64,000 bases of DNA from Dioscorea cayenensis subsp. rotundata (Eukaryota; Streptophyta; Magnoliopsida; Dioscoreales; Dioscoreaceae): the NCBI RefSeq assembly GCF_009730915.1, contig NC_052496.1:186001-250000 (forward strand). Direction: 5' to 3'. The notes beneath the pieces were generated by a model, which saw only the letters and a program-made list of their open reading frames with translations, made no database searches and had not been told where the DNA came from. A program made the translations under genes and the position numbers. Position 1 is the stretch's first letter, and each line of letters begins with the position of its first letter. Shown here one piece after another: positions 88 through 48,742 of the stretch.

Positions 88-3000
88 CCAAGATACAAGA
101 ACGCCTTCACCAGGAGGCCTTTTCATGTCTACAGGAACCCTACCTGTAAGCAGCTCCAAGAGGACAACTCCATAGCTATAAACATCAGATTTCGTTGTCA
201 AGTGACCAGTCAATGCATACCTGGTCGATAAAAGCTTGTGAATATCATATCATCTTTGAATATTAAAGTGGAAATCAGACATTTTTGCCTACAGATACTG
301 CAGTATAAAAGCTTGATAATTTTGTGGGAGTGACAAAAGCAGTAAGTTTAGGATTTACTCTGGGGCTACATATCCTTGAGTGCCTAAAACTCTTGTGGAA
401 ACATGACCTCCAGCTTTGTCCGATCCAAGCTTGGCCAAGCCAAAATCTGAGACTTTGGCATGGAAGTTCTTGTCTAGGAGGATGTTGCTGCTCTTAAAGT
501 CTCTGTGGATAACAGGTGGATTGACATGTTCATGCAGGTATTCTAGACCTTTTGCAGCTTCAAGAGCTATTTTCATTCTTGTCTCCCAGTCCAACTTTGA
601 AACACCAGCACGAGAACCTGAAGATCTAAATCAGGTTAGTGACCTCAGTGGTTTGAACCAGAGGTACACCAACTAACAGAGTTTAAAGCACTCATTTATC
701 ATTCAAAACGAAATTAACAAGCTGTGTTTCAAAAAGAAGAAACAATTCAATGTTGGATTTGAATGACATTCTCAAATGATGTATTTCAAGTTGGAAAGTG
801 GAAACTGCACCTTTCTTGAAAAAACAGGAAACATAAAACTATATCTGTCCCTTGGGAAATGGCATTCATGCTCATGGAGAACATGTGTCCTGTAAGCATG
901 AGAAAAAGACATGTTTGAGTCCTTGACTTAGCAGATGTAAATCCACATCCTCATTGCAATTTGCAACTCTAACATGATGGTCAACAATTGGCCACCAATA
1001 TAGACAATCACATGACATGGAAAAGAATACAATGGACCAACAAATCATGGCTTAGTGGACCAAAAGTATGTTGATTGAAGAGGCATAGATTTTTGACAAG
1101 AGGAGCGGGGACCCGCTAGAATCGTCGAGGGCGTGCAAAGCCTCGATGAAAGCACGTGGGAGCGGGAGCCCGCGCACGTGCGCGTTAGGGACCACCCTGC
1201 ACACAACCACCACTCACATCTCCCTGAAATGCTGCCTCACTCGAAAATCAACTCGCCACTTTCAGAAAAGTCCCTATCGGCAACCCATGTACCAATAGAC
1301 CAGTGTGATCGTTGGCTGAAAGAGGCATAGATTTGACTTGGAAAGAATAGCCCCTAATCACATTTTCTGAACTTATTGTTCAGGGAAATGTGTAGTTTAC
1401 ATCAAACCTATGAAATAACATCTCTGTCCAGGCACAGCATCTAATAATCACTACTATGAAATGCTCATCCCATCTCACAGGGCAGTCTAGAAAGGTGTAG
1501 CCTATTCATGTCTCATTCAAGAAGCAAAACTTACGCACCGCATTTGTTATGTTATGTGATGACTTCTATTCATGTCAAGCAATCCTCAGGCCGAAAGAAG
1601 CCACACTGCTTACAAATACAGATCAGCATATCCAATTTCAATGCCTCATTTCTTTTCTTAAGTTTCACCTGATTAATAGATGATGTACAGACCTGAGTCC
1701 AAGCCCACACACTATTACCAAACTAGAGTACAAGTTTAGTAAGTAAATTTTGCTAAGTTTGACATCTCCCTTTCTGCTGGATTCCATTCTCGTAATCAGA
1801 CATAAGAAAAGATGCATAGTGCCCAGACGTTTTATTTTTTCTCACTTTTCTTGTAGAAAATTGGAACAAAACTTCATCTACAGGAAAAGTTAAAATACAA
1901 AAGGTTAATCTTCTCAATGCTCTCACTCTTGTCTAATTTCCTCATCTTTGAGGGGACAGGTCAGGGTATCCAGCAATTTGACCCAACAAAATACAGACGG
2001 CTTTCATATTATGAAATTAAATATTGCCTATATAATAAGATTGCAAAGTTAATTTATGATAAATATTTTTCACATTCTTAAATGTTAAGCAAGCGATTAA
2101 TCTCAATCATAGGCAACTTGAAGATATAAACACATAATAACCTCATGAAATGTTACTAACTATAATTACATTCTTCCAGTTACAACACAACATGGATAAG
2201 AAAGAAAATAAGGATTGCTTTTTATTAATGGCAACAAAAACATGATGAGACACAAAAAGACAAACCACAGAATTGCAAATAAATAGACTGACCCGGAATC
2301 AAATACTAGAAAATGACAAAGTAATCCTGTAAGTCAAAAAAAAAGATTAGATGCGTTGTAATACAACACCAGAGCAGAATACTCAACACCCCATACAAGT
2401 CCAACAAAACTACGGCAGTAACATCTGTAAACAACCAACAGAAATGGACATCTCACAAACGGGCTTCATAAAATCTCAACAATCAAAAATGAAAGCAAGA
2501 AGGAGAGTTTCAAACTACGCATTACCTCCAGTAGGATAGAGGTGCTCCTGCAAACCACCATTGGCCATGAACTCATACACCAACAGCCTATGACTCCCAT
2601 CCGAGCAATAGCCAATCAATCCAAGCAAATACGGGGACCTCAACCTGGTCAACAACTCCACCTACACAAGCAGGAGCAATCAAATTCCACAAACTACGAA
2701 TACTGGAGCAAATCACCAACCAAAATAAAAAAAAAAGTAAAAGAGAAAAACCTCCATCTTGAACTCCTCTTCGCCCTGCTTCCCAGCTCGATCCATAAGC
2801 TTGACCGCGATCTTCCGTCCATCAGGCAAGACTCCTCTGTACACCGATCCGAAAGCTACCATGCCCGACGACATTACCTTTCCCAAACCCACCCGTGGCC
2901 GAATGGAGCTGCTTGTAGCTGAAAACCTGCACACCCGCCTTCTCTCCCACCACCACTTGCACCTCTTCACCTCCTCCGCCGCCGACGGACCCATTCCCAT

Positions 3001-3275
3001 GCTCCATCTTCTCAGCATTCCCATTCTCTGAATCAAGAAAAGGATCAGCAACCAAATAAACAAGAACACTCTAGAAAACCAAGCAAATCAACAGAGAGAG
3101 TGGAACAAAGCCAGCAACTGCAGCCATGGTCGTTCCGGCGGCGGAGGCGGGAGAGCTTGGAGCGAATGTGGCAGTAGTAAGCGAAAGCAACGAAGAGTGA
3201 CACAAGAGCGAGGCCGGCGAGGGTGGAGATAACAGCCAGTGTGATGCGCTCCTGCCGGCGCTCCTCGCCGTCCAT
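88..3275 (-). CDS. Membrane-anchored receptor-like cytoplasmic kinase (RLCK), 3' end outside window
   Basis: A Ser/Thr kinase of the plant RLCK/Pelle class with a short N-terminal transmembrane anchor, expected at the plasma membrane in signalling. Exons on the minus strand: 3119-3275, 2752-3027, 2526-2661, 359-617 and 88-220, all with GT-AG borders; the first donor (TGCA|gttgct) is weak and chosen because it keeps phase. Residues 12-34 form one hydrophobic helix. Then come an acidic/Gly linker, the motif [20 protein letters not shown], the glycine-rich loop, IAVKLMD with the beta-3 Lys, [22 protein letters not shown] and [19 protein letters not shown]. About 320 residues lie in the window; the last exon(s), encoding kinase subdomains X-XI, lie upstream of base 1. 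Exon 2 is one base too long (AAA at 2852-2854 on +), which shifts frame inside the glycine-rich loop. Intron 3 (618-2525) holds a SINE. Kinase family call is firm; no gene name is assigned. Confidence 0.9.
1093..1319 (-). mobile_element. tRNA-derived SINE, copy 1, with 15-bp target-site duplication
   Basis: The element lies in intron 3 of the RLCK gene. It is flanked by an exact 15-bp direct repeat AAGAGGCATAGATTT at 1078-1092 and 1320-1334. Read on the minus strand it starts with a box A-like TGGTCTATTGG, then a degraded box B region. It ends GGGTCCCCGCTCCTCTTG followed by a short A run. It is about 60-70% alike by eye to the copies at 36940, 45143 and 57621. The long perfect duplication shows retrotransposition by LINE machinery. 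Confidence 0.85.
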
Positions 3276-4039
3276 CGGAGAAAAGCTAATCGTAACCCTA
3301 ACCCTAGATTGGGACTACTGGGGATTTGAGTGCAAGGGCGGGAGTTCAAAGGGAAATCATAGTCATTGGTCGGGAGTTCAGAGAAAAGAGAGAAGAAAGT
3401 GGGAAATAAAAACCCAGTGCATCAAGATTCGGACAAAGTTCATATCTTGAGGTAATTGTACGGTGGATTCATGGCTAGAGTACGTCTTGCATGAATAATA
3501 GTGGTCCGGCCCTTGATGCTGGTCGTCTTGATCGTTTGACTTTTGACTCATTTTGACTTGACTTTGTACCAGAAAGGGACCCGTGAAGCACTCAAACAAG
3601 TTTTAATTTCCAATATTCAAAAAAAAAAAAAAACCTAAAACACCGACAAAATTATTGGATGTCTGCCCTGTGACATGACCTCCATTCTGTTTAGTTTGAA
3701 TTTGTTTATTGGTACATAAATAAGAACACATCAGGCTCTCATTCAAACGTTCAACATTCACAATTTTCATATGTAGAGTAGCACCTAAAAAAAATTTCCA
3801 GCAATACTGAATGGTGACAAAAGTTTGTATTTTTATGAGACATTAGAGGCCACCAACTTTGCATTGTAATTGATAAATGATAATTAGACCCTGCCTGCAT
3901 GCCTCCCGGGTTTAATAGAATGTCTTCTTTGTAATGTCGATTACCCGCGAGACGGGCGTTGTGAGCTACTAAGGAAAATATATTAGAATTGCTGCATCAT
4001 ACGGTTCTGAGTTTCCCAGGTCTGGATAATAACAGAATA
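3276..4039. other. Intergenic: RLCK promoter side and uL1m 3' flank
   Basis: About 760 bases separate two genes in tandem on the minus strand. A 14-base double telo-box (AACCCTAACCCTAG, 3294-3307) lies 18 bases beyond the RLCK start codon, probably in its leader. An A run at 3619-3632 and plain AT-rich sequence follow. No other gene or repeat is evident. Confidence 0.6.
3294..3307 (-). promoter_or_regulatory. Telo-box pair upstream of the RLCK gene
   Basis: Two overlapping AACCCTA units sit in the 5' leader/promoter. Telo-boxes are known cis elements of plant translation-related and cell-cycle genes and can be bound by TRB proteins. Here the gene is a kinase, so the role is inference. The same 14-mer recurs in the MBF1/Rab3GAP2 promoter at 60057-60070. 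Confidence 0.5.
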
Positions 4040-6706
4040 TCACTTGACTTGTAGTTTGACGTAGTTATCAGCGGCGACAGATAAAGATTGTATCGAGACA
4101 GGGAAACCAGGGCCCATCTGCATCGGCATGATCAAAGCTCAGTAGATTAAATGCATAAATTAATAAGATGTAAAAATGGATGATTTAAGATTTGGAATAA
4201 AAAGAATGGACTGCCAATCAACCAAATGATCGAAAGCATATTACATGCCATGCTGCTAACTATGAATCACTGTACTAATACGCATGGAACATGTATAATT
4301 TAGTTTTCCTAGTGTTAATCTATTGCTGTGCTAGAGATGCTAAAGAAATGCTACTAATCATTGGTCACTGGTTGCTACTCCAGTCCGCTAATCAATGCAG
4401 TTAATCTACATGTGAATAAAAATGAGCAGCTCAGATGAACACAATGGCAAAAGAAGATCACTCACCAGAAAGGAAACCATGATTTTTCCATGGTCTATCT
4501 AAATATATGATTTGAAAATTTTATTGTGTAAATCATGCGATCATAAAAAGAGAGATGATTGATCACTTGTCTAATTATGTTATGCAAGGTCTTCTCTCTA
4601 AACCTTGGATGTTGTTTCTAGAGCATGACAAAATCCACAGAGGCAGTAAAATGCTTACCGTGCTGCTTAATGTGAAGTTTTTCACATACCCAGCATATTT
4701 GGAAGCTGCAAAACCAAACATCAAAAGTAGTTGGTCACAAAACTGAATAGAGTTGACCAACAAGTTGGATATTATATTTAGAATATTGGAAGGCTGTTTT
4801 CACTAGTTTTCAATGACAGAATAATGTGTCCTAGTATCAGTGTGCTGTGCTTTTGAACAACGCATCACTGTACTATGCTCATATAAACATAAAATCGCAA
4901 CTTTGTGTTACAAATTATGCAGCTACTTACTCTTCTTCAGGCCAACAGGTTTTGCCAGCAAAAGAGCATTCACAAAAGCTCCAATATTTTCCCGTAAGGC
5001 CTCATCTGAGAAGTTAACCTGCACAAAGAGATATGTCAAACTACATTGTGGGCAGGAAAATGTTCAATATCAAGTTCTCCTTCAACATTGAATCTTATCT
5101 GCTCAATCAAAATTGAAGTAGATATATGATTAGATAAACTCCAGAGTAACATGCCTTCCCAAGCCCTATTAGTCACATACTATTTTTCATGCATGATAAA
5201 GAAACACCAGAGTAACATACCTTCCCAAGCCCAACATGTATGATAGCAGTTTTATCAATTTTGAAATCAATGCGACCACTCTTGGCTTCTTTTACTGCAA
5301 TAGAAACATTACTGGTCACAGACCCTAGCTGCAGAAACATGGATTATCTAATTAAAATAACGCATGAAAGTATATCATATCAAATTGATAAAGGAAGAAA
5401 CTCACTTTGGGATTTGGCATTAAACCACGAGGGACCAAGAATCCTAGCTATCTGTTCAAAAGAAACCCATAAGCATGATCATACAAAATAACCACACATG
5501 TAACTGGCACCACAGCAGAATATTTCAAATATCCATATACCTTGGAAAGGCGAGGCATGAACATAGGCGTTGCTATGCACTTATCAAAGTTAATCTTGCC
5601 ACCTCCTACACAATGAAGGTAGAGTGATTTATGCTTAACACAAAGCAAGTAAAGGTGAATAAATCCTCTTAAATAGCAGAAAACATATAAAGTTTTTATT
5701 CTGCTCCAATAACAGGGCGATTTGGAACTTACAGATGCACTAGCAACCTTCCATACACAGCAATCATCTGCATTATGTCTAAGGCTGACACAATTATCCG
5801 GTTTCTAACCAACAAGTATGGTTGGACGGTTTCACATGAACACATGAACATAGGAGGACAATCAAGAATCAAGAAGCTACAAAATTTAAAAGGAAGGAGA
5901 AAGTGTTGTTCTATCAACCAATATAAGATAATATAGATATGTAGTAATACATTAAATAATTAAAAATTAAAAAAAAAATCCTTTATAATTTTCCCTGTTT
6001 GAATTAACACAAGTATTGGCAATTTGGATCTGTCCACCTATACATTAAAGCACCAAAAAATATCTCATCAATTAATTCCTTCAGGAATGACACATGGAGG
6101 ATGGAAATGAATATAGATGAAAATTTTGAATTACCAGTTTTTATTTCCTCAATGAGTTCATCACCACCAACTATATCAGCACCTGCAGCTTTTGCTTCCT
6201 CCGCTGCAGCACCTTCAGCAAATACAGCAACCCTGACAGTCTAAAAATTTACTAAGTGTCAGTAACAAATAGGACTTACAATTGGCCATTGTTTATCCAC
6301 AAAAGGCTGGTACATAGATCTTTTAATACCTTCCCAGAGCCATGAGGAAGAGTTAGAGCACCCCGTACCATCTGCAAGGTTGTAGAGGTAATGTTTAGTG
6401 ATTATCTGGTTGAAAAAGTGAGCTAATAACATGCAAAACACATACTAAAAAGTATACTTTTGTAATTTAAACTAATCTTCCTCAAGAAATCACAAAATGT
6501 TTATCTTGGTCAATATTCTTCCACTCGATTAAAATTAATCATAATAAAAGAAATAAGACAAGTTATTAAGAAAAAAATAGTTAGAACCTAAAACCATGCC
6601 AAAGTTATCATTAATATTAATAAGCAATATGCCAAAAAAAATGTACAGAAGTCGGTGAGACACTCGCTTCAAATGAGCAGTCAGGAACTCAAGGAATGCT
6701 ATACAG

Positions 6707-6740
<34 letters not shown>

Positions 6741-9927: not shown

Positions 9928-12900
9928 ATGAAAAGTGGTTCCTTTCTTAGTATCAATTGGGAATTTGGGATGGTGGTGGGTAATGTGAAAATCATGCCTT
10001 CTTCTTTGAAGAAGAATCGTTATGGGAGGCATTCTAATGTTTGTTCTTTGCCGGAAAAATCAGTTCTTGCTCATGGTTTGAAGAGTGATGGTGGTTACTG
10101 TGGTGCAGCAGCCAAGGGATTAGAGTGCGGAAAGCGGCATATGGTGATATGGAAGCATTTGAGGATGCTTGGTTTTGTTCTTGGATTGATGACTTCCTTT
10201 TTTGTGCTTGATTCTTTGATGCTTAGTGTGATCCATCATCTTAGTGCTCGGAGTGCTGGGCCTTCTAGAAAAACTATGGGGTTTGAGGTATGCCTATTAA
10301 TTGTTTGATTGGTTTCCTATGTCTACATTGTGACTTGAATGTGGTTTTTTCATGATGATGAGTGGCATTTTTAAATGGAATGTATTGCAGGTGATTAGAA
10401 ATGTTAACTGATGTTTCAGATTTCCTTATTATAGGTTTTCTTACTGAATACTGAATGCATGTCATAACTCATGAGTACATTCAAATTCATTAGGATTACT
10501 TATGCAGTTGAAAAGGGTGAACTTGTAATATGATTGAGAAACAGAATCTGCGTGGGTGACATGCATAGATGAGTATTGGTTATAACATACAAACATTACT
10601 AGTTTGGGAATCATCGTGGTGAATAGAAGCTTGGATTAGGTGGAAAAGGTTGCTATCAAGTTGTGTGGAAGATTGTGGCTGTACAGTTTCTTATAATTTC
10701 TTTTCACACATGCCCCCGCTCGTGCACACACACACACACATATATATAGATATATATAATAAAGGAATTTTTGGTGGATGAATGCTATGATTGTAAACAA
10801 GGAAGAAAGGAGAACAATAGGAGACAATAGTTGTATTGAAATTGAGAATTGACCTGGTATATCTTTTGATTGTTTTGTTTGTGATTTCTTTCCATTGTAC
10901 CAATAGCATTAAAAATATGAATCTTGTTTTAGAGAATATAGAAAATTCACTCTTTTTCATGGGATTGATGGTTAAATTGTAGAACTATGAGAGCTTACAT
11001 TGCTGTGAGCTTGATGAGTTTGTCTGACAATTTTTTTCTTGAAGGATGGAGGGAGAGGATACATTGTTGAGAAAACAAAGGCAAAAATGATGTACAGACG
11101 GCTAGACAACTTGGCTGATAAAGCTCTTTTAATGGTTTGCCTCATATTATAATGAGTGCTTACTTTTCTAGTTGTGCCAACATCATGATAAATTATGGTA
11201 TATGATTTCTCAGCAGAATGAAGTACAGAATGATGAGAATCTGCTATGGGAGGAACCAGCCAGGGCAAGCATCTAGGTGGAAACCTTGTGCTAACAAAAC
11301 TAACTCACTATATCAAGGTAAGACAATAAGTTGGTAATGTCATTCAGTTTATTTGGAATTGTGCATTGTTGACTGTTTATCTTCTATAATCATAATCTGT
11401 TTCTTGAATCAGGGCAGGCTGTTAATCACACTGGTTTTATATTGGTGAGCGCCAATGGAGGACTAAACCAACAACGAGTTGCAGTAAGCAATCATTTAAC
11501 TATATTATTATTTCCAACTTCCCAAAAAAAAGAAAAGAGTTAACTTGAAATGGTCCTAAATTTCAATGGTTGTCTATTTTAAACTGTTTGGAGAAGGTTT
11601 TGCATGAATGCTGCTTCTTCTGAAGCAGTTATTTCACAATTATAGTCTACTGCTCGCCTTCTGAAGTTTAGAAAAACTCGTGAACTAAGTTAATTGCATA
11701 TTCTGAAATGATTTATGTCACCATCACCTCCTTTAATTACCTGAGATTTTCAATATTTTTCTTGACTAGTTGACTGTATGTATGGGCAGGTTATCTGACG
11801 AAGTTGTTTATTACAGGTGTGCAATGCCGTTGCTGTTGCTGTTCTTCTCAATGCAACCCTTGTTCTCCCTAAATTTCTTTACAGCAGTGTATGGAAGGAT
11901 AGTAGGTTCGATAACTTTTCTAGTGATCTAAAATCAATTTTATAATATTTTTTGTTGGGATCCATGCCATCTCTCAGTATGTATAATTTGCATTGAATTC
12001 TTCTTTGTGATGTAATATTTTCACAAGTATTTGCTAAAATTTTCAATTCATACAACATGAAACTCTTTTTAAAGACTTAAGAAATTTCAGCACTTGAATT
12101 TTGCACTACATAGTATCTGATAGAAATCGTAGCTGATAAATTTTGGTTCCATTATGGAATTTATATTGCCTTTGCTTAAGGAGGTTTCCATTACTGCATG
12201 GAATGCACTGTTCAATTTTGACTTCTGATATGAAACCATGGTTCAATTTATGAACTCCCTGTGGAAGAACAAGAAAGTTTATTTTGTATTGAAATGAGTC
12301 AAAAATTGCAAAGCCAGTTTATGATCCAGTAATGTAGATACAATATTTCTTTGAGAGTTTTCTCCTCCTTTAGTGATTCATGCGCTCTGATTTGATTGTA
12401 GTGCAGCCAATTTGGTGATATTTACCAAGAAGATTATTTCATAAATCTTTTGAAGGATGATGTGCGTATTGTGAAAGAGCTGCCTTCTCATCTAAACTCA
12501 CTTGATATTGAAGCAATTGGTAGTCAAGTAAGCTCTTACTGGTTCCCTATCCTTCTAATAGCTAGATAGAGATATGTTACTGATTAGTTATTTATGCCTT
12601 TTATTTCCTTGCTCAGTTTACAGACATGGACATAATGAAAGAGTCAAAGCCTATAGATTTTGTCAAAATAGCGCTTCCTGTTCTAAGAAGAAATGGAGTT
12701 GTTCATTTCCTCGGATTTGGAAATCGGCTTGCATTTGATCCATTGCCTTACAAACTGCAGGTACAATTAATTTTCATTTTGATTCCCATGTCCTGTTATT
12801 TCATTCAAAACGTTCTTCATTATTTTGAATCAAAGATATAGTTTAAGGTCCATCCTTATGTCCATCAGAAATACTGTTTGTGAGTTCTTCAGCAGAATTT

Positions 12901-14078
12901 TCCATCTGCATTTACACCACTCATCATTGTACAATTTTTGGGGGTTCACAAAAGACTCCATTTGATTACTGTCAAATAAGTCATACGCTGGATGATCAGA
13001 GGCAAATGATTGTACTCTTGTTTTGCAGAGGTTAAGATGCAAATGCAATTTTCATGCATTAAAATTTGTGCCTCAAATCCAAGAAGTTGGCTCTTTATTG
13101 GTCCAAAGAATAAGAAGGCACAACTCAATGGTGAGTAAACTAGATGCACAACTTCTTGGAGATCATATGCCTAAAGCTCCAACAACCAATCTTGATACAT
13201 CATCACAAGGGTCATTCAAGTATCTAGCATTGCATATGAGGTTTGAAACAGATATGGTGGCATACTCACAATGTGATTTCGGCGGAGGGGAAAAGGAGTG
13301 GAATGAGTTACAAGCATACAGGGAGATTCATTTTCCCACACTTGTGATGAGAATGAAAAATGAGTAAGTTTCTCATACAAATGTTATCTACCATGAAGCA
13401 TTCATTCGCTTGTTTTCATGCTAAAATACAAGTATTTTCTCAGATCAATATCACCATCAGAATTGAGAATGTTGGGAAGATGCCCATTGACACCAGAGGA
13501 AGCGGCACTGATGCTCTCCGCCCTCGGCTTTAAAAGTAGGACTTACATCTATCTTGCCGGTTCTCATATCTATGGTGGTCAATCAAGAATGCTTCCATTC
13601 ACCAAACTCTATCCAAATTTGGTCACAAAAGAAGATCTCCTTACTCCAAGTGAACTTGCACCTTTTAGAAATTTTTCTTCAAGAGTGAGTTCCACTTGAA
13701 GCATTTCAAATCCATACTACACTCTTGATAGTAATCTTGATACAAACTATTATATTTCCATGCAGTTAGCAGCATTAGATTTCATTGCATGTGCAACTTC
13801 AGATGTCTTTCGCCATGACTGATTCCGGGAGCCAGCTCTCTTCACTTGTTTCTGGTTATCGAGTGTACCATGGTGATGGCCAAGCACCAACATTGCGGCC
13901 GAACAAGAAGAGGTTTGCTAAGATTTTATCTGAGAATGAAACTATCAGCTGGGATCAGTTCAAGGACAGGGTGACGAAGATGATCGATGAAGGTCACAGA
14001 GTTCGTTCACGGCGTTGGGGAAGAAGCATTTACAGGCAACCAAGAACCCCAGGCTGCATGTGCAAGGACTCCTCTTGA
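9928..14078 (+). CDS. O-fucosyltransferase family protein (GDP-fucose O-FucT-like, type II membrane)
   Basis: Plant GT106/GT65-like protein (former DUF246), probably a Golgi glycosyltransferase for cell-wall or protein glycans; the substrate is unknown. Exons: 9928-10287, 11045-11134, 11217-11317, 11413-11483, 11817-11905, 12407-12527, 12617-12760, 13029-13363, 13444-13684, 13766-14078. A cytoplasmic N-terminus precedes one membrane helix at residues 79-104. Family motifs are GFILVSANGGLNQQRVAVCN, NATLVLPKF, VVHFLGFGNRLAFDPLP, the acceptor/donor-site LALHMRFETDM, CPLTPEE, YLAGSHIYGG and SALVSGYRVYHG-like SLVSGYRVYHG near the end. Expected product about 620 aa. Two exons are each one base too long: exon 3 (GGG 11263-11265, between WEEPAR and ASRWKPC) and exon 10 (TTT 13808-13810, in ATSDVFAMTDSG). 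A NAGNAG acceptor (cagcag, 11211-11216) precedes exon 3. Start at 9928 is the first long-ORF ATG. Confidence 0.9.
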
Positions 14079-14362: not shown

Positions 14363-17079
14363 TCAAGATGGAGGAAAGAAGCGGTTTAGGTTGAAAGGAA
14401 GAGTGTAGAACTCTTCATTCCTGCTATCACCTTTGAAAGTTCGGAATCTGGCCCACCATGGCATTCCTCTATCCCTTGCGGTGTCCTTGAACTCAAGAGT
14501 GTTGTCGAGGAAGACAGCCACGATCAGTGCAACAGTTGGCGGTGACGAGAAAATGGTGTTTATGAAGTCATTGAACTGTTATTCGAAGAATTAGTTAGTT
14601 TGTATTCATTCGATAAAGTCATTGAAACGACATATGAAGGTTAGTAGTAACAAACCCATCCAGCATCTGTGTGTGCAGGTCCATGGCGAGCAGATTGGGT
14701 GTAGCTGAAGAAGTATTCGGGAATAGAGAGACCAAGGAACAGGGACACGCCGGTGATGAAAAGGTTGCGCATTGAGTTCATGTTAGTGAACTGCAAAAAC
14801 GAGAGGCCTACGGCCGCTGGAACGGGCAAATGCAACAAAAATTTTAGAACCAATACATAATAATAAACAGATTGATCATCGTATTGACAAAACACAACAC
14901 ACATACCAACAAGACCGAACAATACACAATAGACTGCAGCAAATATCGGGAACGGTATTGATGCAAACAGAGCTCCAAATTTTCCTGTAGAGAAAATACG
15001 CGATATATAAAATTCTCACATGTATGTATTTCTTGGTTGTGAGATTTAGACACGAACCTAACATAGAGAAGAATATCATAAAACCAGCAGATATTTGAAC
15101 AACTCTGCGGCTCCCGACTCTGGTTGCTCCCAGAAGCCCCACATTCTCTCTGTTTTTATTATCAGTATAGTTTGTAGTAGTTTTCAGTATAAATAAAATC
15201 ATTCCATCAAGCATAATTTAGGATAACATGCAGTAGAACAGCTTACACAGAGACGGTTGAGCCAGTGCATGTGCCAAAGAGTCCATCTAGTAGAATTCCT
15301 ATCCCCTGATCAAATGATTTCCAATAAATATTAAATGCATGAACATCGAGTGATGAGAAAAAAAGTTCCAACAACAAACCTGCCAGCCGATGCCTCGACT
15401 GAGCACGTGAGCAGGCGGTGGTGTAGCACTCGCTAGTCGAGCTGCAGCCTTTGTAGGCCCCTGTCGACTATGCACAAGAATAAAGCAGTTTGATTAAGTT
15501 GCAGTGTCAATTCCTCGACCAAACACATGTCAATTATAGTTACCTCAATTAAAGAAACTAGCACGGCAGCCATCATTCCGAAGGAATGTCCAGCATCAAA
15601 TGTTGGCGCGCCCCACTGCAGTGGATACGGAATCTTTATCCTGAAAATGGTGGATGGCACAAACTTTAGCTTGGTGATAAAAAAAGCCGACAATGATGGA
15701 TTGAATTATTGCTAACCATGGAGCAGCGGAGATAAGATTGGCACGGTCCGTGCGGCAATGTGATTGAGTGAGCGGAGGACTGTGTTTGTATGCACCGCCC
15801 ACAGTTAGCAGGTGGGCATAGAGCCAGATGATTGCAGTGGCTGCAAGTAGTGCAAACCTCTCCAATAATGGCACACGCCTTGTATGTATATGCTTCAGAT
15901 ACTGATTAAAAAGATGGAAGAGCATAAGAAAATACGAAATCCAGGCACAATGATAAATCAAAAGCAAGTAGTCTTATACCTGAGAGAACGCAACGAATAG
16001 GATAAGCATTGGAACTCCGATTTCCACACACTTTCCTACCTGATATTTACAAGACAATATGAGCTCTGGCATAATACATAGTTTGCAAAAGACCGAATTG
16101 TAAGATAGAAGTGATATGATACCACAGGAAATCCTCGATTGAAAAGGCCAAAGCCAACTGCGGCAACAACCGGAACCATTCCAAGTGGACTGAAAAATCT
16201 GTTTACATTAACATAGAGAATCACATTAAGCCAATGTAGAGCTAGTGCATTGGCATGGTGTAAGAGAGTTAGATGTAGTAAACCTTGAGCAAATGCCCCA
16301 TAACTGACTGTATCCTAGAATGATTTGAATGCTAGAAGCAACAATCAAGGCTCCTTGAATTGCTCTTATGGTTTGGAGGAACCTCTGCATTAAACGGCTA
16401 GTTAGTAAGCGAAGAAAGGCCGGCCATTGTTTAGCGAAGTTGAGTACCTCATGGCCATCTGGTATATCTCTAAAGGATGAGTCCTGAATTATGGAGATGA
16501 TGGGGACTATGAAGGCATAGGAGCCACCGATCACAGTCGGAAGGCGAGTGCCGAAGAGAGTCTGCAGCAAAGTGTTTATACCTCCCACAAACAACAATGT
16601 CTGCACTACTCGCACCTTGTCACCCTACATTTAGCAAGAGAAAACACTTGATTAAATGATGCAACTCTAATTTGTGCACAGAAATAGTCACAATTGATTT
16701 CTAGCTATTAAGTGACAACTAGAAATGAATGATGAATCAATTATGAAGAATTCACAGAACAAACTGAAGGTGAATTTGAAAGGAATTCAATCTTACATCA
16801 GTGCCACCCATTAAGGGAACTAAAAAACTTGGGATCATTACTGCAGTTCCTAAGGCAAGTATGTAATGCTGAAATCCCAAAACAACGGCTTCTCCTGCAA
16901 CACATACAGAAGGATAGGCAAATATATGAACTACGTTTTGAGATTTAAAGAGTATCATCAACAAAAATTCAATAGAAAACAAGCATACCCCAAGATGGAT
17001 TGGAGTCGATGCAATACTCAAAGCCCTGGAGCTGGTCCATGGGTGGATGAGTGATCTCCTCTGGTTTGATGTCTGCCAT
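14363..17079 (-). CDS. Nucleobase-ascorbate transporter (NAT/NCS2 family)
   Basis: Polytopic membrane permease for nucleobases (xanthine, uric acid, uracil or adenine in studied plant members), usually at the plasma membrane. Fourteen exons on minus: 16989-17079, 16797-16894, 16448-16624, 16284-16384, 16123-16198, 15980-16039, 15717-15901, 15544-15640, 15380-15467, 15247-15305, 15058-15149, 14907-14984, 14656-14816, 14363-14575. The start MADIKPEEITHPPMDQLQG is typical of the family. Then come GFQHYILALGTAVMIPSFLV, GTRLPTVIGGSYAFIVP and the NAT signature ENVGLLGATRVGSRRVVQ (motif [QEP]-N-x-G-x4-T). The C-terminus ends in RDRGMPWWARF and a short cytosolic tail. Expected product 524 aa, the usual length. 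Exon 9 is 88 bp instead of 87: an extra base in CCTTT (15448-15452) just after STGAYK. The 5' leader probably has an intron with acceptor at about 17101. Confidence 0.93.
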
Positions 17080-20586: not shown

Positions 20587-20624
<38 letters not shown>

Positions 20625-23677: not shown

Positions 23678-23709
<32 letters not shown>

Positions 23710-32424: not shown

Positions 32425-32455
32425 GAACGTTTCTAAGCCGACAACTCCGTCTCTC

Positions 32456-32594: not shown

Positions 32595-32615
32595 CCGAGC
32601 TCCACCTCTTCATCC

Positions 32616-36939: not shown

Positions 36940-37155
36940 AGGATATTGGTACACAGGTCGCCGATAGAGCTCTCACCGAATGGTGAGAGTTCGATTCTCG
37001 GCTGAGGGCACATTTCTGGGAGTTGTGAATAATAGTTGTATATAGGTGGTTCCAGCGCCCATTTGAGCACGGCCCCATCCCCATTTATTCCACCAAAGCT
37101 TGTGCACGTCCCTAGGTCTTTAGTGGATTCGCCCCGCTCCTCTTCCCCAAAAAGT
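36940..37155 (+). mobile_element. tRNA-derived SINE, copy 2
   Basis: Close relative of the copy at 57621: the core from GGTACACAGGTCGCCGATAG through the box B GAGTTCGATTCTC to GCCCCGCTCCTCTTCCCC and an A tail is shared nearly base for base. The 5' head upstream of GGTACACAGG differs, and no convincing target-site duplication is seen, so the left border is approximate. Confidence 0.75.
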
Positions 37156-37424
37156 TTATATATGTATTACTTGAAATGAGTTTCTCTTTTTCTCTAGGAA
37201 CTGACCCACTTCACTGAAAGAGTTCTCTCCGGCCCTCACTATTCCAATTGCCCACTTCCGTGCTCTTTTCCTACATTTCTGTCCTTTTCCTCCATTTCCA
37301 TTCGCTGCTTTACCGCTTTCCTTTACTCTGTTTTACCGTTTTGCTTTTACACCCTGCAGGTGGCTATATAGCCTATATATACATAGAACATAAACCAAAT
37401 GTGCCATAAACAGAAACTAGCTGA

Positions 37425-40206
37425 TTATGTCAGCAATGAAAGGGTGGCTGATTAGTTTTGTAGGTCTAATGAAAATAGAATTGACCGACTCAAACGATTT
37501 AAATTAAGATATTGTATATTTTATTTTTTCTATGCTACTATTTATAAGCATAGTACAACGCTGATGAAGACTGTTGGATTATCTTTACAAACATTCATAG
37601 ATGACACGGTCTCATATATATATATATATATATAAAGAGAGAGAGGTTGTGTCATCTAAAAATATTGGTAAATCTTGTATTTAAAAATATTGGTGCTGAA
37701 CACTTGGATTTAATTTCTTAAAAAAAAATTATTATGTAAATGAATAGTGTTACCTACTTATCTTTTAACTAAGTGCAAGTTTTTTAGAACTATTTACAGC
37801 ATTGTTCGTAAAAACAGAAGAGAGGATAGGATATAAGTGTAGTTGGTCAATATCCAAAATCTATTGTCACTGGTTTCATAGTGTTTTTGTCATTGTTGAT
37901 GAGGTAAATTTGAATATCAATTTAAATAAAACAAAGATATAAATGAGTTAAGACATTAACTCTTTATTTGTATTTGTCTTTCACGTGACTTGTTTATTTT
38001 GTAAATAATTAAAAACTAATGGTGATTAAAATGATTAATTTATAAGATGTTTAGATTTACACTTTAAATTAGATCTTATCTTATAGATAACTCATTATCT
38101 TATTTTATAAAAATTTTTATTAATTAATTATTGTATATATTGCTACGGTAAATTTGTGAATCCATTGTAAAAAAATTATGTAAAAATCTATGGAGTTTGG
38201 ATTACTAATTACCACGATGAAATTTATCTTATGTTATTTTAATATTTAAATTTCAACAACATTCTCATCGTATATGAATCCAACTAACATATGTCTAGAC
38301 TACCCAGTGATAGGACAAAAAATTTAACAATCAAAATAAATAAAATAACACAACAATAACCGTTATGGTCAAGGGGATCTAGCCAATTGTCGTATTCAAT
38401 TTCGTTAAATTATAATTATTCAATTTCTCATATTCACATAATTAAAATAACCTTTTATTAATCACATTAATAAAATCAAATATACGTGTATAACTTAAAA
38501 ATAAAAACATATTAATAATAACATACTAATCCATTCCTCATTTCAATATCACCAGCCCAATAACAACTTCCCCACATTTTAATTAATTTTCAAATTTTTT
38601 AAATATAATTCTCTAAACAGTTTTCTATTTTTTTTTTTTTTCAAACTTACCTTTTAATCCCTTTAATTTAACTATAATATTTTGGTCTATTTACAATTTT
38701 AATTTTATTTATATTAGTTACCTAAATCTTATATTCTAATCCTAAACCATCAAAAAAGGGGATTATATCTACAATGAAAGGGTGGTTGATTAGTTTTGTA
38801 GGTTTAATGGAAATAGAATTAACCAACTTGGACGGTTTAGATTAAAATACTAGACATTCCATTTTTTCTGTACTATAATTCATAAGTATAGTATGACAAT
38901 GTTGATGAAAGTCATTAGATTGTCTCTGCGAGCATTCGTAAATGACGTGGGCTCATATATATATACATAGAGAGAGAGGTTGTGCCCTCTAAAAACGTTA
39001 GTAGATCTTATATTTAAAAATGTTGGTACTAAACCTTTGGATTTCATTTCTCAACAAAAAATTATTGTGTAAATGAATAGTGTTATGTACCTATTTTTTT
39101 AACTAAGTGCAAGTTTTGTTTGGAACTTTTCAAAGCACTGTTTATAAACAAAAAAGAGAAGATAGGTCATAAGTGTAGTTGGTCAATATCTAAGATTTAT
39201 TGGTTCTATAGTGTTTTTATCCCCGTTGAGAAGGTAAATTTGAAACTCAATTAAAATAAAAGGAGAGTATAAATGGGTTAAAGGATTAACTCTTTATTTG
39301 TATACGTGTGATTTGTTTATTTTGTAAATAATTAAAACTAAAATGATGATTAAAAATTATTAATTTGTAAGACGTTTAGATTTACACTTTAAATTAGATC
39401 TTATCTTATAGATAACTCATTATCTTATTTTATAATCTTTTTTTATTAATTAATTATTCTATTTATTACTATGGTAAATTTGTGTGAAAATCCATTGTAA
39501 AAAAATTATGTGAAAATCTGTGGGGTTTGGATTACTAATTACAACAATGGAATTTATCTTATTTTATTGTACTATATAAATTTCAACAACATTTTCATAG
39601 TACATGTGTCGTATATAAATCCAACTAACATATGTCTGGACTACCCAGTGATACGACAAAAAAATTTAACTGTGTCTAGACTATCAGTGATACGACAAAA
39701 ATTGTAACTATGTCTGGACTATCCAGTGATACGATAAAAATAAAATAAAAAAACAATAATATCCGTTATGAACAGCAGATTCAACCGATTGTCGTTTTCA
39801 ATCTCGTTAAATTATCGTTATTTAATTTCTCATATTCACATAATTAAAATAATTATTTATTAATTTCATCAATCAAATCAAATATACATGTATAACTTAA
39901 AAAAAAAAAAAACATATTAATCCATTTCCCTTTTCAAAATCTCCATCCCAATAACAATTTCTCCACATTTCTTTTTTCTTTTAAAAAAACAACCAATATT
40001 TATTTATTTATTTATCTATTATCTACACTAATTTTAATTAATTTTTATTTATAATAAAATAAAAATAAATCCCTAAACAGTTTAACCATATTTTCCAAAT
40101 TTATCCTTTTAGTTTTTTACTTTAAACTGCAATATTATTTTGTTATTTTACAATTTTAATTTAACCATATAAATTTTTTTAAATTCTAATCCTAAATCAT
40201 CACTCT
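37425..40206. repeat. Large tandem duplication (two ~1.35-1.43 kb units), non-coding
   Basis: Unit 1 spans about 37425-38770 and unit 2 about 38771-40206, in direct orientation. Shared anchors include AATGAAAGGGTGG (37437 / 38776), TTAGTTTTGTAGGT, the AGAGAGAGGTTGTG block, TTAGATCTTATCTTATAGAT, CTACCCAGTGATA and TTCTAATCCTAAA. Identity looks around 80-85% by eye. No ORF is conserved between the units. The unit has no obvious terminal repeats, so it looks like a segmental duplication rather than a mobile element. Confidence 0.8.
39626..39740. repeat. Three ~38-bp tandem copies inside unit 2 of the large duplication
   Basis: The stretch TATGTCTGGACTACCCAGTG plus ATACGACAAAA and a short A/T tail occurs three times in a row. 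Unit 1 has a single copy at about 38290-38332. The array therefore expanded after the large duplication. Confidence 0.75.
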
Positions 40207-40262
40207 GACATAACTCGTTTAAACGTAGTGGTGTGACATAACTCGTTTAAACGTAGTAGTGT
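40207..40262. repeat. Two 28-bp tandem copies
   Basis: GACATAACTCGTTTAAACGT plus AGTGGTGT repeats with a 28-base period, at the right edge of the large duplication. Each copy holds the palindrome CGTTTAAACG. Confidence 0.85.
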
Positions 40263-40507
40263 GACTAAAAATATTATAATTTAAAATAAAATATGAATAA
40301 AAACAAATTTACTTTATTTAGAAAATTATAAAAAACAAAAAGCAACCAATGCAAGAAATGCAGGCCACCTCATCCACCGCTGAAATGTAACTCAAAGCAC
40401 GAACTCCAACACTACTTTCTTGTCCTTTTCTCATTCAACGCATCACCAAAGTCAAACCGCTCACCGGACACCCGGGCCCACCTTCCCTTCTCTCTCTCTC
40501 TCTCTCT

Positions 40508-40535
40508 TTATATATATATATATATATATATATAA
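40508..40535 (+). promoter_or_regulatory. (TA)n tract acting as TATA region of the DOG1-like gene
   Basis: A TA run of about 28 bases follows a CT-rich stretch and ends about 66 bases before the start codon. It is the only TATA-like element in range. As a microsatellite it could vary in length and affect promoter strength. Confidence 0.5.
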
Positions 40536-40601
40536 ACACAACAAACATCACCACCACCTTCTTCCTTGTTCCTTGTCCCCAAGCTCCACAAACCCTCAAC
40601 A

Positions 40602-41417: not shown

Positions 41418-41463
41418 GCTTTCTGCATGCATGGCCCTTTGCTTTTTGTTGTGCTGGAGTCCC

Positions 41464-41497
<34 letters not shown>

Positions 41498-42388
41498 AAA
41501 GACTCTGGATAATATTTTTAATATTTACTAGATATTCACCCCGGTTTCGCATTAGAGTTTTTAAAATTTTGTTTTAAGTTTTAAAACAATATCATGTATA
41601 AAATAATATAATTAAATAATTTATACCATGAAAATTATGGTATATCTTACAAAGATCATGAGTTACTAAAAACATAAGATTGGAACTCAAAGAAAATTTG
41701 AACAAAAAGAAATGGATTTCAAAAGTCTTATAAATATTTATTGTATAAATAATTAGGTGTAATTAATGTTTTTTAATTATTAATATTATAAGTAATATAA
41801 ATAAAAACTTAAATGTTAAAAATTAAAAATTAAAATTGTTACTTAAAATGCTTTTGGAGTAGAATATATATCTACTTTAATAGTATTTATAGATATATTT
41901 ATCTCCTGGCCAAGAATGAATGATGATATTTAAATTAAAAAAAATTGATTTAATCCCTAAATTATATCAATAATTTACTTTGACACGTTTACATCAAACT
42001 CGTGCAGTTATAAATTAAATAAAACACTTTGTTGACTCTAATCTCTGAAGTGTATAAAAATATTCATTTATTAGACTTTTTTTTAAAGAATTTTTAAATA
42101 AATAAAAAAATCATTAAAAAGATAAAAGCACAAAACATTTTTGTGTAATTCTAACAACTTTTTTATTTATTTATAACCAACAGAAAATTTGCTCGTAATT
42201 GAGAACTCACCAATTTTTTTTATTTTTTTTTCTATTTGTGTTAATGTGTGTTTGTATAATGCTTTGGTGCAAGTGTGGTGGCTTTGTTTGTTTGAGTGCT
42301 GCTAATGAATAAAGACTCTAGAATGTTGTTTTGATTACAGATGATGGGGATATTTAGACAGAGTAAAAGAATGAATATAACATAGTTG
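41418..42388. other. Convergent intergenic region DOG1-like / MRH1-like
   Basis: About 970 AT-rich bases with an (ATT)n tract at 41465-41496. It holds the two 3' UTRs; nothing else seen. Confidence 0.6.
41465..41496. repeat. (ATT)n microsatellite
   Basis: Uninterrupted ATT run of about 32 bases in the 3' flank of the DOG1-like gene. Confidence 0.9.
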
Positions 42389-45300
42389 TTAACTTGCTTG
42401 AACTGAGAGGATCTCAAGTTCTGCCCACCAGAGTGGAGAAAGTCTGGGTGTTGCTGCTTCAGGTGTGATTGAGATAATGTTCCTTAGTTTGGATGTGATC
42501 ATCAGCATTGTTGGTCTCTGAGTCTTCACTGTGTCCTGGTCAATGCAGTCTCTAATAACTTCGCATATCATCGATAGTTCATCTTCACTGTGGGATTTCA
42601 ATGATGGGTCAACAATGCTGGATTTATCGGTCATACGTTTCATCGCCTGTTCAAATAAACTATAGTCAAGAAGATTTATTATCAAGATTGGTAGTTGTAG
42701 CAAAGTCTTTACCCAGTCGGCGAGGGAGCCTTGTTCATCGGAATATGGAATTTTTCCAGAAATGATTTCTAGAAGAAGAATGCCGACACCATACACACTT
42801 TGCCGAGGATCAGCTGATGATGAGTCTGTTGTTGTTCCTTTCAACTTGATATCTTTCCAAACACTAGTATCGGCGACCTGAAAATAACTTTCAGAAAATG
42901 AAAGATATTTGTTGAAAGCAATGTAAGGAATTACCTTGGCAGCATAATCATCGGTAATGAATATAGAAGTCGATTTTGGAACAAGGTGTACTATTGGCGG
43001 ACTGAGTTCGTGATGCAAATATTGAAGACAGTATGTGATGCCCATAATAATCCTCATTCTAGCACTCCAGTCAAGATACTCAAATTCCTTGACTGCAAAA
43101 TATGGTTTTCAACTAATGATCATCTAGCAGAAATAACTAAACTTGTTTTTGTGGTTTGGCCAAATGTTCTCACCATGAAGATGCTCAAATAGAGTTCCGT
43201 TAGGAGCATACTCGAAAACCATCATTCTCGTAAAAGGCTCATTCTCTTCACAGTAACCGAGAAGGTTGATAAAGTTCTTGTGGTTTATTCGGGACAACAT
43301 ATCTATCTGCATATCCAAAACAAGAAGTTACATGAATTTAGGTGTGCAAAAGTTAACGAATTTTAAAGAAAATATGCTGGCAACAAGAATGATAGACCTT
43401 TTTTCTGAAACTTGTTTCAGAATGCTTGGACCAATCTTGGGCAGATTTAATTGCAGTTGATACAACTGCAATCTCAACACCACTTGACAATGTTCCCTTA
43501 AATACTGTGTGATATGCAGAACTACTGATAATATTGCTAAAATCCTCACAAGCAGCTACTAGTTCTTCACGGTTTAATTTTGGCACACCTGAAAGATCAA
43601 ATTGTTCATATGGTTCAATTTTGGGGAATGCCAGTGAATTAATGGAACTGACGCGTGACTTTTACAGTTGGTAATAAATTAGAGAATAACATCAGAGCTT
43701 ATTGAAAGTTATCTGTTGTAAAATCATGACATAAATTGAGTAGCAAATAAAGCGGTGACAACAAATCAGCTATTCGGCAAATTCATGTAAACAAATTTCA
43801 CATTTAGAATTCAAATTAAGGGAACTGCATGGGCTATTTGGTTCATAAAATGGGAGTTGGAACATTTTCAAGTATATATACTTGTGTCAAGATTCTAGAG
43901 CTCATTTGCTTCTGTTCCTAAGTACAAGTATGTATGTGCATCATGCACAACAGCGTAATTTCAGATAGTTTAACTCATGTTGTCTTTTTTGTTCAAGTTA
44001 AGATTCCAAGAGACAATATACTCAAAAGAGCACATGGTATAAGCATTCATGTGAAACACATAATCAACTTTCTGGAAGAGTATAATCAAATAACACAGGT
44101 TCAAGCGTCTATCCTAGACTCCTGATCATATTTGTAGTCTTACATAAATAAAGCTTTGGAATATATTATTATATTATTTAAGTGTAAATAAACTTGCAGA
44201 CTTTTATACTACAAAATATGAAATAAATTTTACCTGTTATAAATGCCTTCTTTAGCTGGCCACTTAGTCCAGTCCTCCAAGGACCAATAGTAGGTGCTTC
44301 CTTTTTGCGGCACATCAAAATCAGGACTGCAGACAATATAAGAAGCAAGGCCACTGCTGGAAGTATAAAAATATAAGGTCGCTCTGCCAATCTTCTACTC
44401 AGGGAGTCATGATGCACAGAATTGGTTTGGTCAATAGGTCCTGAGCCAGGCTTGGCAGAGTTAGCAGGTGGATCTTCAGGTGCTGTAGGCATTGGCGGTT
44501 GTTTCTTCTGACTTCCAATTTTAGAATTTGGTATAGCTGGAAACGAGCCACTACCAATAGATGGAACGGCGGCAGCTGGAGGGTTGTAGCTACTCACTGG
44601 AGTTACAGCAGCGAGGTTCCTGGTTTCTTCAAACAGCCTACGTCGGAGAGAGTTTAGTGCATTTCTATTTTGAACTGAAGAAGTGAGGCCTGCAGGGGAG
44701 AAGAAATTGTCTCTTATAAAGCTTAATATGTTGCATTTTGGTTGTGGAACATCAGAACAATATACAATAGGTACCCAAAAGGTTTTCGCTGTTGCCCTCC
44801 CAACGGGCAGATGAAGAGCAGCTTTTAAACTTAAACCTGTCAAAGAAATAGATAAATAAATAAAAAAATCTTAGCAGATATACTCCATTGACTTTTATTA
44901 AAGGATACTAGATCCCTATAACAACTACTGTCAAGAGCCATATAAAGGAATCGATGATTAATCTGAATGATGAAAAGAAAGGATGTATATATATATATAT
45001 ATATAATGTAGCAATTTTCAAGACCATCCGCTGGTTGGCAATTAGAGCCCTTGGCTAAGCTTATCTTGATGTGGAAACAAACTTAGCTTAAATTGTATTT
45101 ACCAAGGACTCCAATTTTTGTCATTCTTTTTTTTTTTCCAAGATGAGAGGCTAGGCCTCTAAAAAAGGCATTGATGTCCACAAGTCTTAGCGGAGGAAGT
45201 GAGGGCGGGGCCCATGCACACATAGGTGCTGAGTACACCCGCACACGACCACTACTCACACTTCCAGAAATATGACCTCACCCATGATTTGAACTCTCAC

Positions 45301-47041
45301 CACTTGTGATGAGTATAATTCTAATGGGGACTCAACTACCAATAGGCCACTTGATCGTTGGTCAATTTTTGTTTTTTTTGTTTTCCAAGTTTCCTCATAA
45401 AACTACTATCAAAGAGGTATATAAAGGAATGGATGATTGATCTGCATGATGAAAAGAAAGAATATATATATATATATATATATATAATGCACCAATTTTC
45501 AAGACTAACAGCTGGTTGGCAATTAGTGGCCTTGGCCAAGCTTATCTTGATGTGGAAACAAAATCTTAGCTTAAATTGTATTTACGAACGACTCCAGTTT
45601 TTGTCCATCTTCTGCCTCTTTCCAACAGCACTTTTAACAGTGGCGAGCTACAAAATTATTCTGATTTCAAAGTCGCTTACTGTAATTTGATCAATTTCTT
45701 AAACGAATGGTTTTTTCATTGGATGCATTCACTAGGCTGTTGTCATGATAATCTCTAAGCATTAAACACAAGCATCTAGCTTGCTCATAGAAAATGTTAG
45801 CAAACCCAATAAATATGCATGAGTTGCAGCATTAAGAGCAAGATCATGTGCCTCATACTCATTGCAGAAACTCATACCAACCCTCTAAGTTCCTTGGCAT
45901 ATAAATATGAGTAAGTAAACTAAGGATAAAAAATACAAAAAACAAATTATTTTGAACATAAGTTTCCTCCTGGTCCAAGCAATAAAATAAATTGTGATAA
46001 ACGCAAGGAAATATCACATCGAGAAGAAATTAGTCATGTACCAGTTATAAAGTTTTCTCTTTATAAAAGCAATCTGAATGGCCTTGTCAAAAATAACATT
46101 TCTATCATCTCTTCTATCAGAAAGCATGTCAAGCCCTTCAATTGAAGAAGGTGAATGACTAGGCAGTTTGTTGCCACGGAGCAGGCTGCAAAGAGCAAAA
46201 GATACACAAAGTAAATTAGACGATCACAACCTAAAAGATGAAAGATAAGTTTGTGATTATATACCCACAGATGCTTAAGTGATAGCATCTCTCTTATCTC
46301 AGTAGGAACTGCCCCACTTAAGTTATTGTTGCGCAAGTCCAACAGCTCAAGCATATTTAGGCTTCCAATCTCCTTGGGGATGGCTCCAAAAAAGTTGTTT
46401 TTATAAAGTACACTATCAAAGCAGTAAATTTAGAATTCCGATATAAAGCATTGAATGAGTACTAGTTGTAAGACAAAAGTAGGCCAAAACCTTCTTTAAA
46501 AAAATGAAGGTTCTTAATTCATTAATGGCCTCAGATAAAGGTCATTCACACATCATGGAGATTAACTACGCCTCATGTTGCTCAAATTGCGGCTATGCAG
46601 AAAGTTAGAAAATCCAATGCCAGATGGACATCATTGATTTCAAAATAGTTACCACCATCTTCATGATAATGATCTTATACAGGTAGGAAAAATATCATCA
46701 GCCAAGTCATATTTGGGCATTATAGTTTGATTATTAATGTAAAACCTAAGCAAGTTGCAAACAATCAATTGAAGGAATAATGGCCATGCAAAACATAAGT
46801 TTTAAATGAAATATAATACTTAAGGTTTTGTTAGATATGAGACATAACAAAGAGAAATTTGTTTCAGATGGGCCAATGCCCATTTATCACCAGTCTATGT
46901 AAGAAGATAAGAAGACTGGGCCTGGAAGTAGCAGCTATGACTACAGTGGAATTAGGATATACGGTGCAATAATAGTTTTCAATTTTTCCCCACTAGAGAA
47001 ATAAAAGCTTATTTGATAAAAATCTACTCAATAGCTTGGTA

Positions 47042-47078
<37 letters not shown>

Positions 47079-48742
47079 ATTAAAGCACAATATTCACGTA
47101 GCAGTCCTGACTACAGTGAAATTAGGATATGTGGGCCAATAGTAGTTTTCAATTTTTTCCCCACTAGAGAGCTAATTTGATAACAATCCACTCAATAGCC
47201 TTGGTATGCATATATAGGCATTGAAGTACGATATTCAAGTAAAATGTCTATAGGTAATTTTGATGAACGGCTTGTGTGATTCCCAATGCCCTGATGCCTT
47301 AAATTAATCACACTGGCTAGGTAAATATATCATTCTGTTAGCTAATATTCATATCTTCCATTTTTTAACCTTATTCTTTATTGTTTGTGTCCAGTAATTT
47401 AATCACATTCAAGAACTTCAGGGTATGCTTGAACCAAGTAAATAAAAAAGAACACAACATAGTACTTAAAATTTAATAACCAGGAAGGTGTCTGCGACGA
47501 ACAATATACAAAATCTTTCATGAATTCTGAATAACAATGCTTACATGGATCTTAGGTGGCAAAGCCTTCCAAGCTCAGGTGCCAACGTCCCTCCCAGTGA
47601 CAGCTCTTTTAGGTTCCTACAATTGAGGTCTCATAAGAATTTGGATTATTATCAGGTCATTCATGCATGCTGACAATTTTTTTATATAATACAGAATTAC
47701 CACAAAAAGTGTGTAAGGTAATTAAACAGAAGCTCAGATATTAGAATGAGAGATCAATTCACATGCTGAAGAATATATATATATATATGTCAATCTAACT
47801 TTTAGATTAACAATGCTAACTACTGACCTACCAGACTCATATAAAGTCCACATCTGACCCTTAGTCAATGTTCAGCCGTATATGAACCATAAATCATAGG
47901 TCGATTTGGTTGTTGTGGGTTTTGTTCACACTACAAGTCAACTTAGACTGGGTTTTTCATTTAACACCAGTTCATAAATGTCCCAAATCCTCTAACCTAA
48001 CCATGCACGCGGCAAAAGCGTATATCAGAGAAATAAACAAATGTAGAGAGCATAGGAGAAGATATGATATGCCAATCACAAGCATTAATATGGAAAAGAA
48101 TAAGGATATGATATGCCAATCACAAGCATTAATATGGAAAAGAATAAGGATAAGGTAGAATCAGGGTAGAGCAAACAAGGAAATAAACAAGCAAGAACTG
48201 CTGTACCAACCAGGAAAAAATATGCAGATAGGGTCTGGTACTAATTAAATGATCAAAATACCATCAGGACATGCAGAGACAACGCCAGAATATACTCTAC
48301 CGAAAAGAGGAGATTAGCAACTATGCCTAGACTCTCATGAACATTGATAAGTTTCAAGTCCTACAAACTAAATATAAATTTGTAAAAATACAAATACTTA
48401 CAACATTTCCACCACTCCATTAACACAATAAACACCAGTCCAGTTACAAGGATCACTGTCTCTTGCATCCCAATTTTCCAAGGCGCCATGAGGATCGATA
48501 TCCCACCCGGGATCGGAACTCCAACAAGGCCAATCCTTTATTGCCAACAAACAATCAAGTATTACAAAATTTGTGCCTCCAAATTTCCAAACAAACACCA
48601 AGAACAACAGTATAATTGACAGCCATCAGAGTGCACCTTCAAAGTTAAGCGACAAACAACCATTTGTGTGAAAGTACATCAACAAGAAGGCGTACATAAC
48701 CTTGCACAACCGATAACCAAAAACATTCCATTCTCTGCCCAT
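42389..48742 (-). CDS. LRR receptor-like pseudokinase, MRH1 type
   Basis: Single-pass receptor related to Arabidopsis MRH1 (root-hair morphogenesis). Twelve exons on minus: 48637-48742, 48402-48535, 47545-47616, 46269-46412, 46042-46185, 44775-44836, 44234-44689, 43398-43588, 43174-43306, 42935-43092, 42713-42877, 42389-42646; expected 673 aa. Signal peptide from MGREWNVFGYRLCKVMYAFL; then the LRR N-terminal part DPCNWTGVYCVNGVVEM, three to four LRRs (MLELLDLRNNNLSGAVPTEI), RRRLFEETRNLAA, and a membrane helix YIFILPAVALLLILSAVLIL. The kinase-like domain lacks the beta-3 Lys (IAVVST where AVK is usual), has VHLVPKSTS for HRDLK.N and KVADTS for DFG, so it should be inactive, as in its relatives. 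Exon 2 is 134 bp instead of 133: an extra base in CCC 48502-48504 just before DIDPHGALENWD. A SINE and three local duplications sit in introns. Confidence 0.92.
44915..45611. repeat. Direct duplication (~215 bp units, offset ~480) around a SINE, in MRH1-like intron 5
   Basis: Unit 1 at about 44915-45126 and unit 2 at about 45395-45611 share TATAAAGGAAT.GATGATT, a (TA)n tract, CAATTTTCAAGAC, GCTGGTTGGCAATTAG, GCTTATCTTGATGTGGAAAC and TTAGCTTAAATTGTATTTAC. SINE copy 3 lies between them. The intron segment duplicated first, and the SINE landed at the end of unit 1. Confidence 0.8.
45143..45362 (-). mobile_element. tRNA-derived SINE, copy 3
   Basis: On the minus strand: head GACCAACGATCAAGTGGCCT, box A-like GGCCTATTGGTA, box B-like GAGTTCAAATC, then the family body TTTCTGGAAGTGTGAGTAGT and GGGCCCCGCCCTCACTTCCT. 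Flanking stretches with the pattern AATTTTTG...TTTTCCAAG (about 45113-45142 and 45364-45389) look like a target-site duplication with slipped T runs. It is the most diverged of the four copies. Confidence 0.7.
46925..47245. repeat. Imperfect tandem duplication (~165 bp) in MRH1-like intron 3
   Basis: Two units share GACTACAGTG.AATTAGGATAT, TAGTTTTCAATTTTT, CCCCACTAGAGA, ACTCAATAGC and TTGGTATGCATATATA. The first unit ends in a long (TA)n tract at 47045-47076. Confidence 0.75.
47045..47076. repeat. (TA)n microsatellite in MRH1-like intron 3
   Basis: One of the longest TA runs in the window, about 32 bases. It marks the junction of the local duplication at 46925-47245. Confidence 0.9.
48061..48148. 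repeat. Perfect 44-bp tandem duplication in MRH1-like intron 2
   Basis: 48061-48104 and 48105-48148 are identical, each starting GATATGATATGCCAATCACA. Lack of any difference means very recent origin, a length polymorphism, or an assembly artefact. Confidence 0.9.

Follow-up and report, generated by a model that had tools for sequence, protein, structure and literature searches.

One-base insertions in otherwise sound genes of the Dioscorea rotundata assembly are very probably errors of its consensus

The window considered here is a stretch of 64 kb (C26:186001-250000) from the 584,211,761-base, 2,249-contig assembly of Dioscorea rotundata. The W-linked primer sp16-F published for white Guinea yam, whose marker is placed on pseudo-chromosome 11 (PMC5604175), has a single, exact match in this assembly, on contig 11; the genome is most likely the TDr96_F1 reference, presumably in its version 2. 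From eleven of its genes we read 75 peptide pieces, 13,290 nt in total, all of which could be located in the DNA. Five of the genes have a broken reading frame: a receptor-like cytoplasmic kinase (RLCK), an organellar-type ribosomal protein uL1 (uL1m), an O-fucosyltransferase-family protein (O-FucT), a nucleobase-ascorbate transporter (NAT), and an LRR receptor-kinase-like gene to which we give the provisional name MRH1-like. They are unrelated, ordinary plant genes, and the O-FucT gene is broken twice. The exons read of six other genes contain no break; three of these (CIPK, DOG1-domain and tubby-like) were identified by profile match, and the other three we take to be HCNGP-like, MBF1-like and RAB3GAP2-like. 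The 13,290 nt thus hold six frame breaks, all of them +1 and none -1, a count that applies to the recognised exons, as unrecognised ones could conceal a break and the RLCK and RAB3GAP2-like genes extend past the window edge. An intron of the tubby-like gene also carries a 72-base direct repeat (53208-53279 and 53286-53357, 96% alike).

Three-frame translation of the exons gives the same picture at each of the six sites, where the conserved protein enters in one frame and resumes in the frame shifted by +1. The RLCK exon is interrupted on the minus strand at 2851..2854, in the glycine loop, between pieces 3028-2852 and 2853-2755 (that is, 2852-3028 and 2755-2853 in forward coordinates), and its original frame reaches a stop 9 codons on. 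The second site lies in a 46-nt exon of the uL1m gene (5430..5433, minus strand; pieces 5431-5451 and 5406-5429), and there, as in the NAT exon at 15448..15452 (minus strand; pieces 15450-15467 and 15380-15451, with one K codon common to both), the original frame meets no stop inside the exon. Both O-FucT sites are on the plus strand, one of them loosely placed at 11263..11265 (pieces 11217-11264 and 11266-11316) and the other in the last exon at 13808..13811 (pieces 13766-13810 and 13812-14075); at each the original frame stops after 3 codons. The sixth site, in the first recognised exon of the MRH1-like gene, falls at 48502..48504 on the minus strand (pieces 48504-48536 and 48404-48502), with a stop in the original frame after 16 codons. 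The first-pass annotation of this DNA had proposed one extra base per otherwise sound exon, and the translations and the 75 located pieces bear this out at all six sites. It had also described each event as a two-base run read as three. Every site does fall within or next to a three-base run, possibly by chance, but placement is ambiguous at four of the six, and at the RLCK, uL1m, second O-FucT and NAT sites the extra base may be the neighbour of the run instead.

How exactly do the two sides of each break join? When the sides were submitted separately to a structure search, the two uL1m pieces met on 8v9j_K, the left one stopping at residue 133 and the right one beginning at 134; the left NAT piece stopped at residue 346 of 7ytw_A, and the right piece, after its leading K, aligned from its second residue at 348. 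These alignments show that nothing is missing between the two sides of either break. In RLCK the left piece reaches as far as the glycine-loop F, its match, to CERK1, being weak (E = 0.042); the right piece begins on the following G of a plant kinase structure. In the MRH1-like gene the downstream frame matches LRRNT_2 from profile position 16, placing the site within that domain. With the short pieces of RLCK, NAT and O-FucT, Pfam searches gave weak matches or none; the O-FucT family is identified by PF10250 matches at C26:197814-197912, 199002-199355 and 199418-199684. A paralogous exon on C4 passes the second O-FucT site in a single open frame and is one base shorter there in the alignment. 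Support at the first O-FucT site, the least exactly placed of the six, consists of its exon phase and of the WKPCA stretch that follows downstream, and locus L082, examined for this site, contains no matching exon. The C4 relative (C4:21896502-21901391) matches exons of the window's O-FucT gene (9970-14075) in the same order at ~70-74% DNA identity, and an old genome duplication may have produced it.

As assembled, the sequence does interrupt every one of these frames, and the five genes could be real recent pseudogenes, or loss-of-function alleles picked by the assembly; unprocessed pseudogenes likewise have frame breaks and keep their introns. Real decay does exist in this genome, as in a GRAS locus with ten breaks of both signs (L060) and perhaps in a receptor-kinase cluster on C5 that carries stops. 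The window genes differ from unprocessed pseudogenes, however, in that the exons read, 75 pieces from 11 genes, contain no stop and no second kind of lesion beside the six +1 breaks, that the breaks have one sign only, and that they fall in unrelated families. The earlier statement that no nonsense change accompanies the insertions therefore holds for these 13,290 nt. For the O-FucT gene, the one gene for which the assembly was searched at the DNA level, only short matches of 70-97% were returned, and no further copy that could replace it was found. The same pattern also recurs in the GRAS genes described below, some of which keep otherwise conserved domains despite a break. We consider it very unlikely that the five genes are true pseudogenes or null alleles.

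All 67 GRAS candidates in the assembly were scored, giving 63 matches and 47 fetched loci, of which 41 were kept; the six dropped were L060, the fragments L063, L064 and L065, L055 (partial domain) and L040 (two intron-like inserts). Breaks were called with a frame-jump-tolerant profile alignment built from 28 GRAS genes that have a single open frame over the domain. In control runs this aligner gave the right sign to simulated +1 shifts in 84 of 84 cases and simulated -1 shifts in 83 of 84, calling the remaining one as two +1; in a leave-out control, a false pair appeared in 1 of the 28 intact genes, which are the aligner's own training set. The 43,611 nt of the 41 genes gave 18 +1 calls and 3 -1 calls, with 13 genes broken and 28 unbroken. 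Two of the -1 calls are neighbours in a weak stretch of L053, where the net effect is one +1, and the third, in L026, is likewise in a weak stretch. A single divergent gene on a 21.6-kb contig (L061) contributes 4 of the 18 +1 calls, and excluding it leaves 14 vs 3.

A second family gave a similar result. All 104 NPH3 candidates were scored and the table was read by hand after exclusion of fragments, copies resembling repeats and the truncated one at C19:25921940. Over about positions 1-232, 21 genes are single-frame, one of them with an internal stop. Five others are broken, four by a net +1 (two on C8, one on C16 and one on C19) and the fifth, at C19:1377467, by an ambiguous net two. Separately, NPH3 fragments with common limits (about 69-155 and 169-258) and a stop recur at C13:7794761-7795262, C13:4892293-4892794, C16:21964877-21965369, C3:2829376-2829877 and other places, as though a mobile element had duplicated part of the gene.

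With five of the six sites lying within the window's first 15.5 kb, one might suspect a locally bad unplaced scaffold, with errors limited to C26 or to unplaced contigs. The breaks in the two families are found on contigs ranging from 21.6 kb to >31 Mb, including large ones such as C5, C6, C8, C9, C12, C13, C15, C16, C18 and C19, and in the GRAS genes they occur at about the window's rate. We regard a purely local fault as even less probable than pseudogenes. The similar density of breaks in the GRAS genes and the prevalence of +1 in both the GRAS and NPH3 genes point instead to a property of the assembly as a whole, and the earlier proposal of a systematic, insertion-biased consensus error is upheld by these two families, in which every candidate was scored.

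Expressed as +1 breaks per kb, the rate is 0.45 in the window (95% interval 0.17-0.98) and 0.41 in the GRAS genes (0.24-0.65), where the intervals assume that breaks are independent. A sign test gives p = 0.03 for the window alone (6/6 of one sign) and p = 5e-5 for the window and GRAS genes together (24/27 of +1). The GRAS rate corresponds to one extra base in roughly every 2.4 kb of coding sequence, or near QV 34; spread evenly, it would extrapolate to some 240,000 extra bases in 584 Mb, although such evenness is doubtful. The window and GRAS rates are alike, yet a cluster of five tandem receptor-like kinases on C5, taken from the kinase table (C5:330600-378800, L077-L081; 13.1 kb fetched, ~11 kb aligned), has no clear coding +1 in its aligned sequence. 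One copy (L078) has two weak +1 calls at its extreme start and also two -1 calls, another (L079) has a two-base insertion, and L077 and L080 have one stop each. This pattern resembles real decay more than the +1 signature, and it implies either that the rate is uneven, the cluster being better corrected, or that the cluster is truly decaying.

All 55 Exo70 candidates were scored and eleven loci were fetched, and a further candidate, C6:2971880, which is open in one frame, lies outside those eleven. Of the eleven, eight are unbroken; a ninth contains two +1 without a stop, L075 contains two +1 plus a stop and is not counted as sound, and the last has a -1 call together with a 123-base intron-like jump. 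Among eight CIPK loci chosen by kinase-domain score, the window's own included, one has a +1 and another a +1 and two -1, all of them beyond the kinase domain. The CIPK calls show that -1 breaks exist in this assembly, so the earlier description of the breaks as all +1 and none -1 stands for the window (6 vs 0) but does not extend to the assembly. For UGT, 86 of 214 candidates were scored; neither this table nor that for O-FucT was used for sign, because introns and partial-protein matching make their frame jumps ambiguous.

Might the extra bases be real, and the cell compensate for them? The sign is nearly always +1 and the conserved protein continues on either side, which would fit +1 ribosomal frameshifting or RNA editing. 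Programmed +1 frameshifting joins two frames of one protein by a +1 step, and the yam breaks likewise connect two frames of one protein by such a step. Unlike programmed sites, however, those in yam share no slippery motif, as judged by eye at the break points, and have no stop codon at the point of the shift; a stop-coupled signal is absent, as the original frame stops 3-16 codons on or never within the exon. The 28 unbroken GRAS genes also speak against a general mechanism, and we know of no +1 frameshifting or editing system of this kind in plant nuclear genes. That yam cells skip or edit genomic extra bases, with nuclear genes commonly expressed across +1 breaks, is the least credible of the explanations considered, and we give it almost no weight.

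The six extra bases are, on the strength of these sequence comparisons, very probably insertion errors that were never corrected in the Dioscorea rotundata consensus, rather than mutations of the plant. Such errors would be expected to leave otherwise sound genes with one-base indels that favour one sign, as found here (6 vs 0 in the window, 18 vs 3 in the GRAS genes), and these are spread across unrelated genes and, in the GRAS and NPH3 families, across many contigs. We presume that the assembly was made from nanopore reads with Flye, and an incompletely corrected long-read draft consensus would be a plausible source of the extra bases. Read as consensus error, the feature is an artefact of an ordinary kind, of practical interest only, and not a real biological feature.

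The lambda genome, about 48.5 kb long, offers a yardstick for the rate of such errors in unpolished drafts. In one study, Flye drafts of four genomes from nanopore R9.4 reads contain 14,394, 18,718, 177 and 75,290 insertions against 439, 5,039, 2 and 8,459 deletions, respectively (PMC8011154); one-base insertions far exceed deletions there as in the D. rotundata assembly, but the yam rate is lower, at ~0.4 per kb of coding sequence vs ~177 insertions in the lambda genome. According to the same study, Racon shifts two bacterial genomes to an excess of deletions, and yeast remains insertion-rich following Racon and Medaka (PMC8011154). Another nanopore assembly likewise has indels at short runs that break frames, but these are mostly deletions, the opposite sign to that in yam (PMC12007338). 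The insertion sign therefore fits a partly corrected draft consensus, as far as these profiles allow comparison, but is no proof of one. The first-pass annotation had spoken of long-read error left after polishing; the insertion excess agrees with the Flye drafts, but a deletion excess after other polishers and in another data set makes the "left after polishing" part of that phrase the less secure one. In a comparative study, 595 conserved families are lacking from the D. rotundata annotation vs 53 from that of D. alata (PMC9010478), a difference that fits with consensus error, other causes being possible as well. In the literature within our reach, which excluded supplements and most subscription journals, we found no report of such an error in this assembly.

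The assembly serves as the reference for a staple crop, and the result is a caution for its users rather than new biology: 13 of the 41 surveyed GRAS genes are broken, and if coding sequence does contain ~1 false extra base in every 2.4 kb, any missing families, lost genes or pseudogenes deduced from the assembly need to be checked against reads. It also follows from +1 breaks across the assembly that, as had been suggested at the outset, a single frameshift here proves no pseudogene.

The window also contains repeats. A dispersed repeat of ~130-230 bases is present in four copies that are 71-86% alike (57627-57856 and 36944-37153, with 1090-1316 and 45173-45304 on the minus strand); a stretch near 57690 resembles a B-box, one copy has an end rich in A, and the repeat may be a tRNA-derived SINE. 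Two adjacent copies of ~1.2 kb, at 38761-39970 and 37423-38579, are 77% alike.
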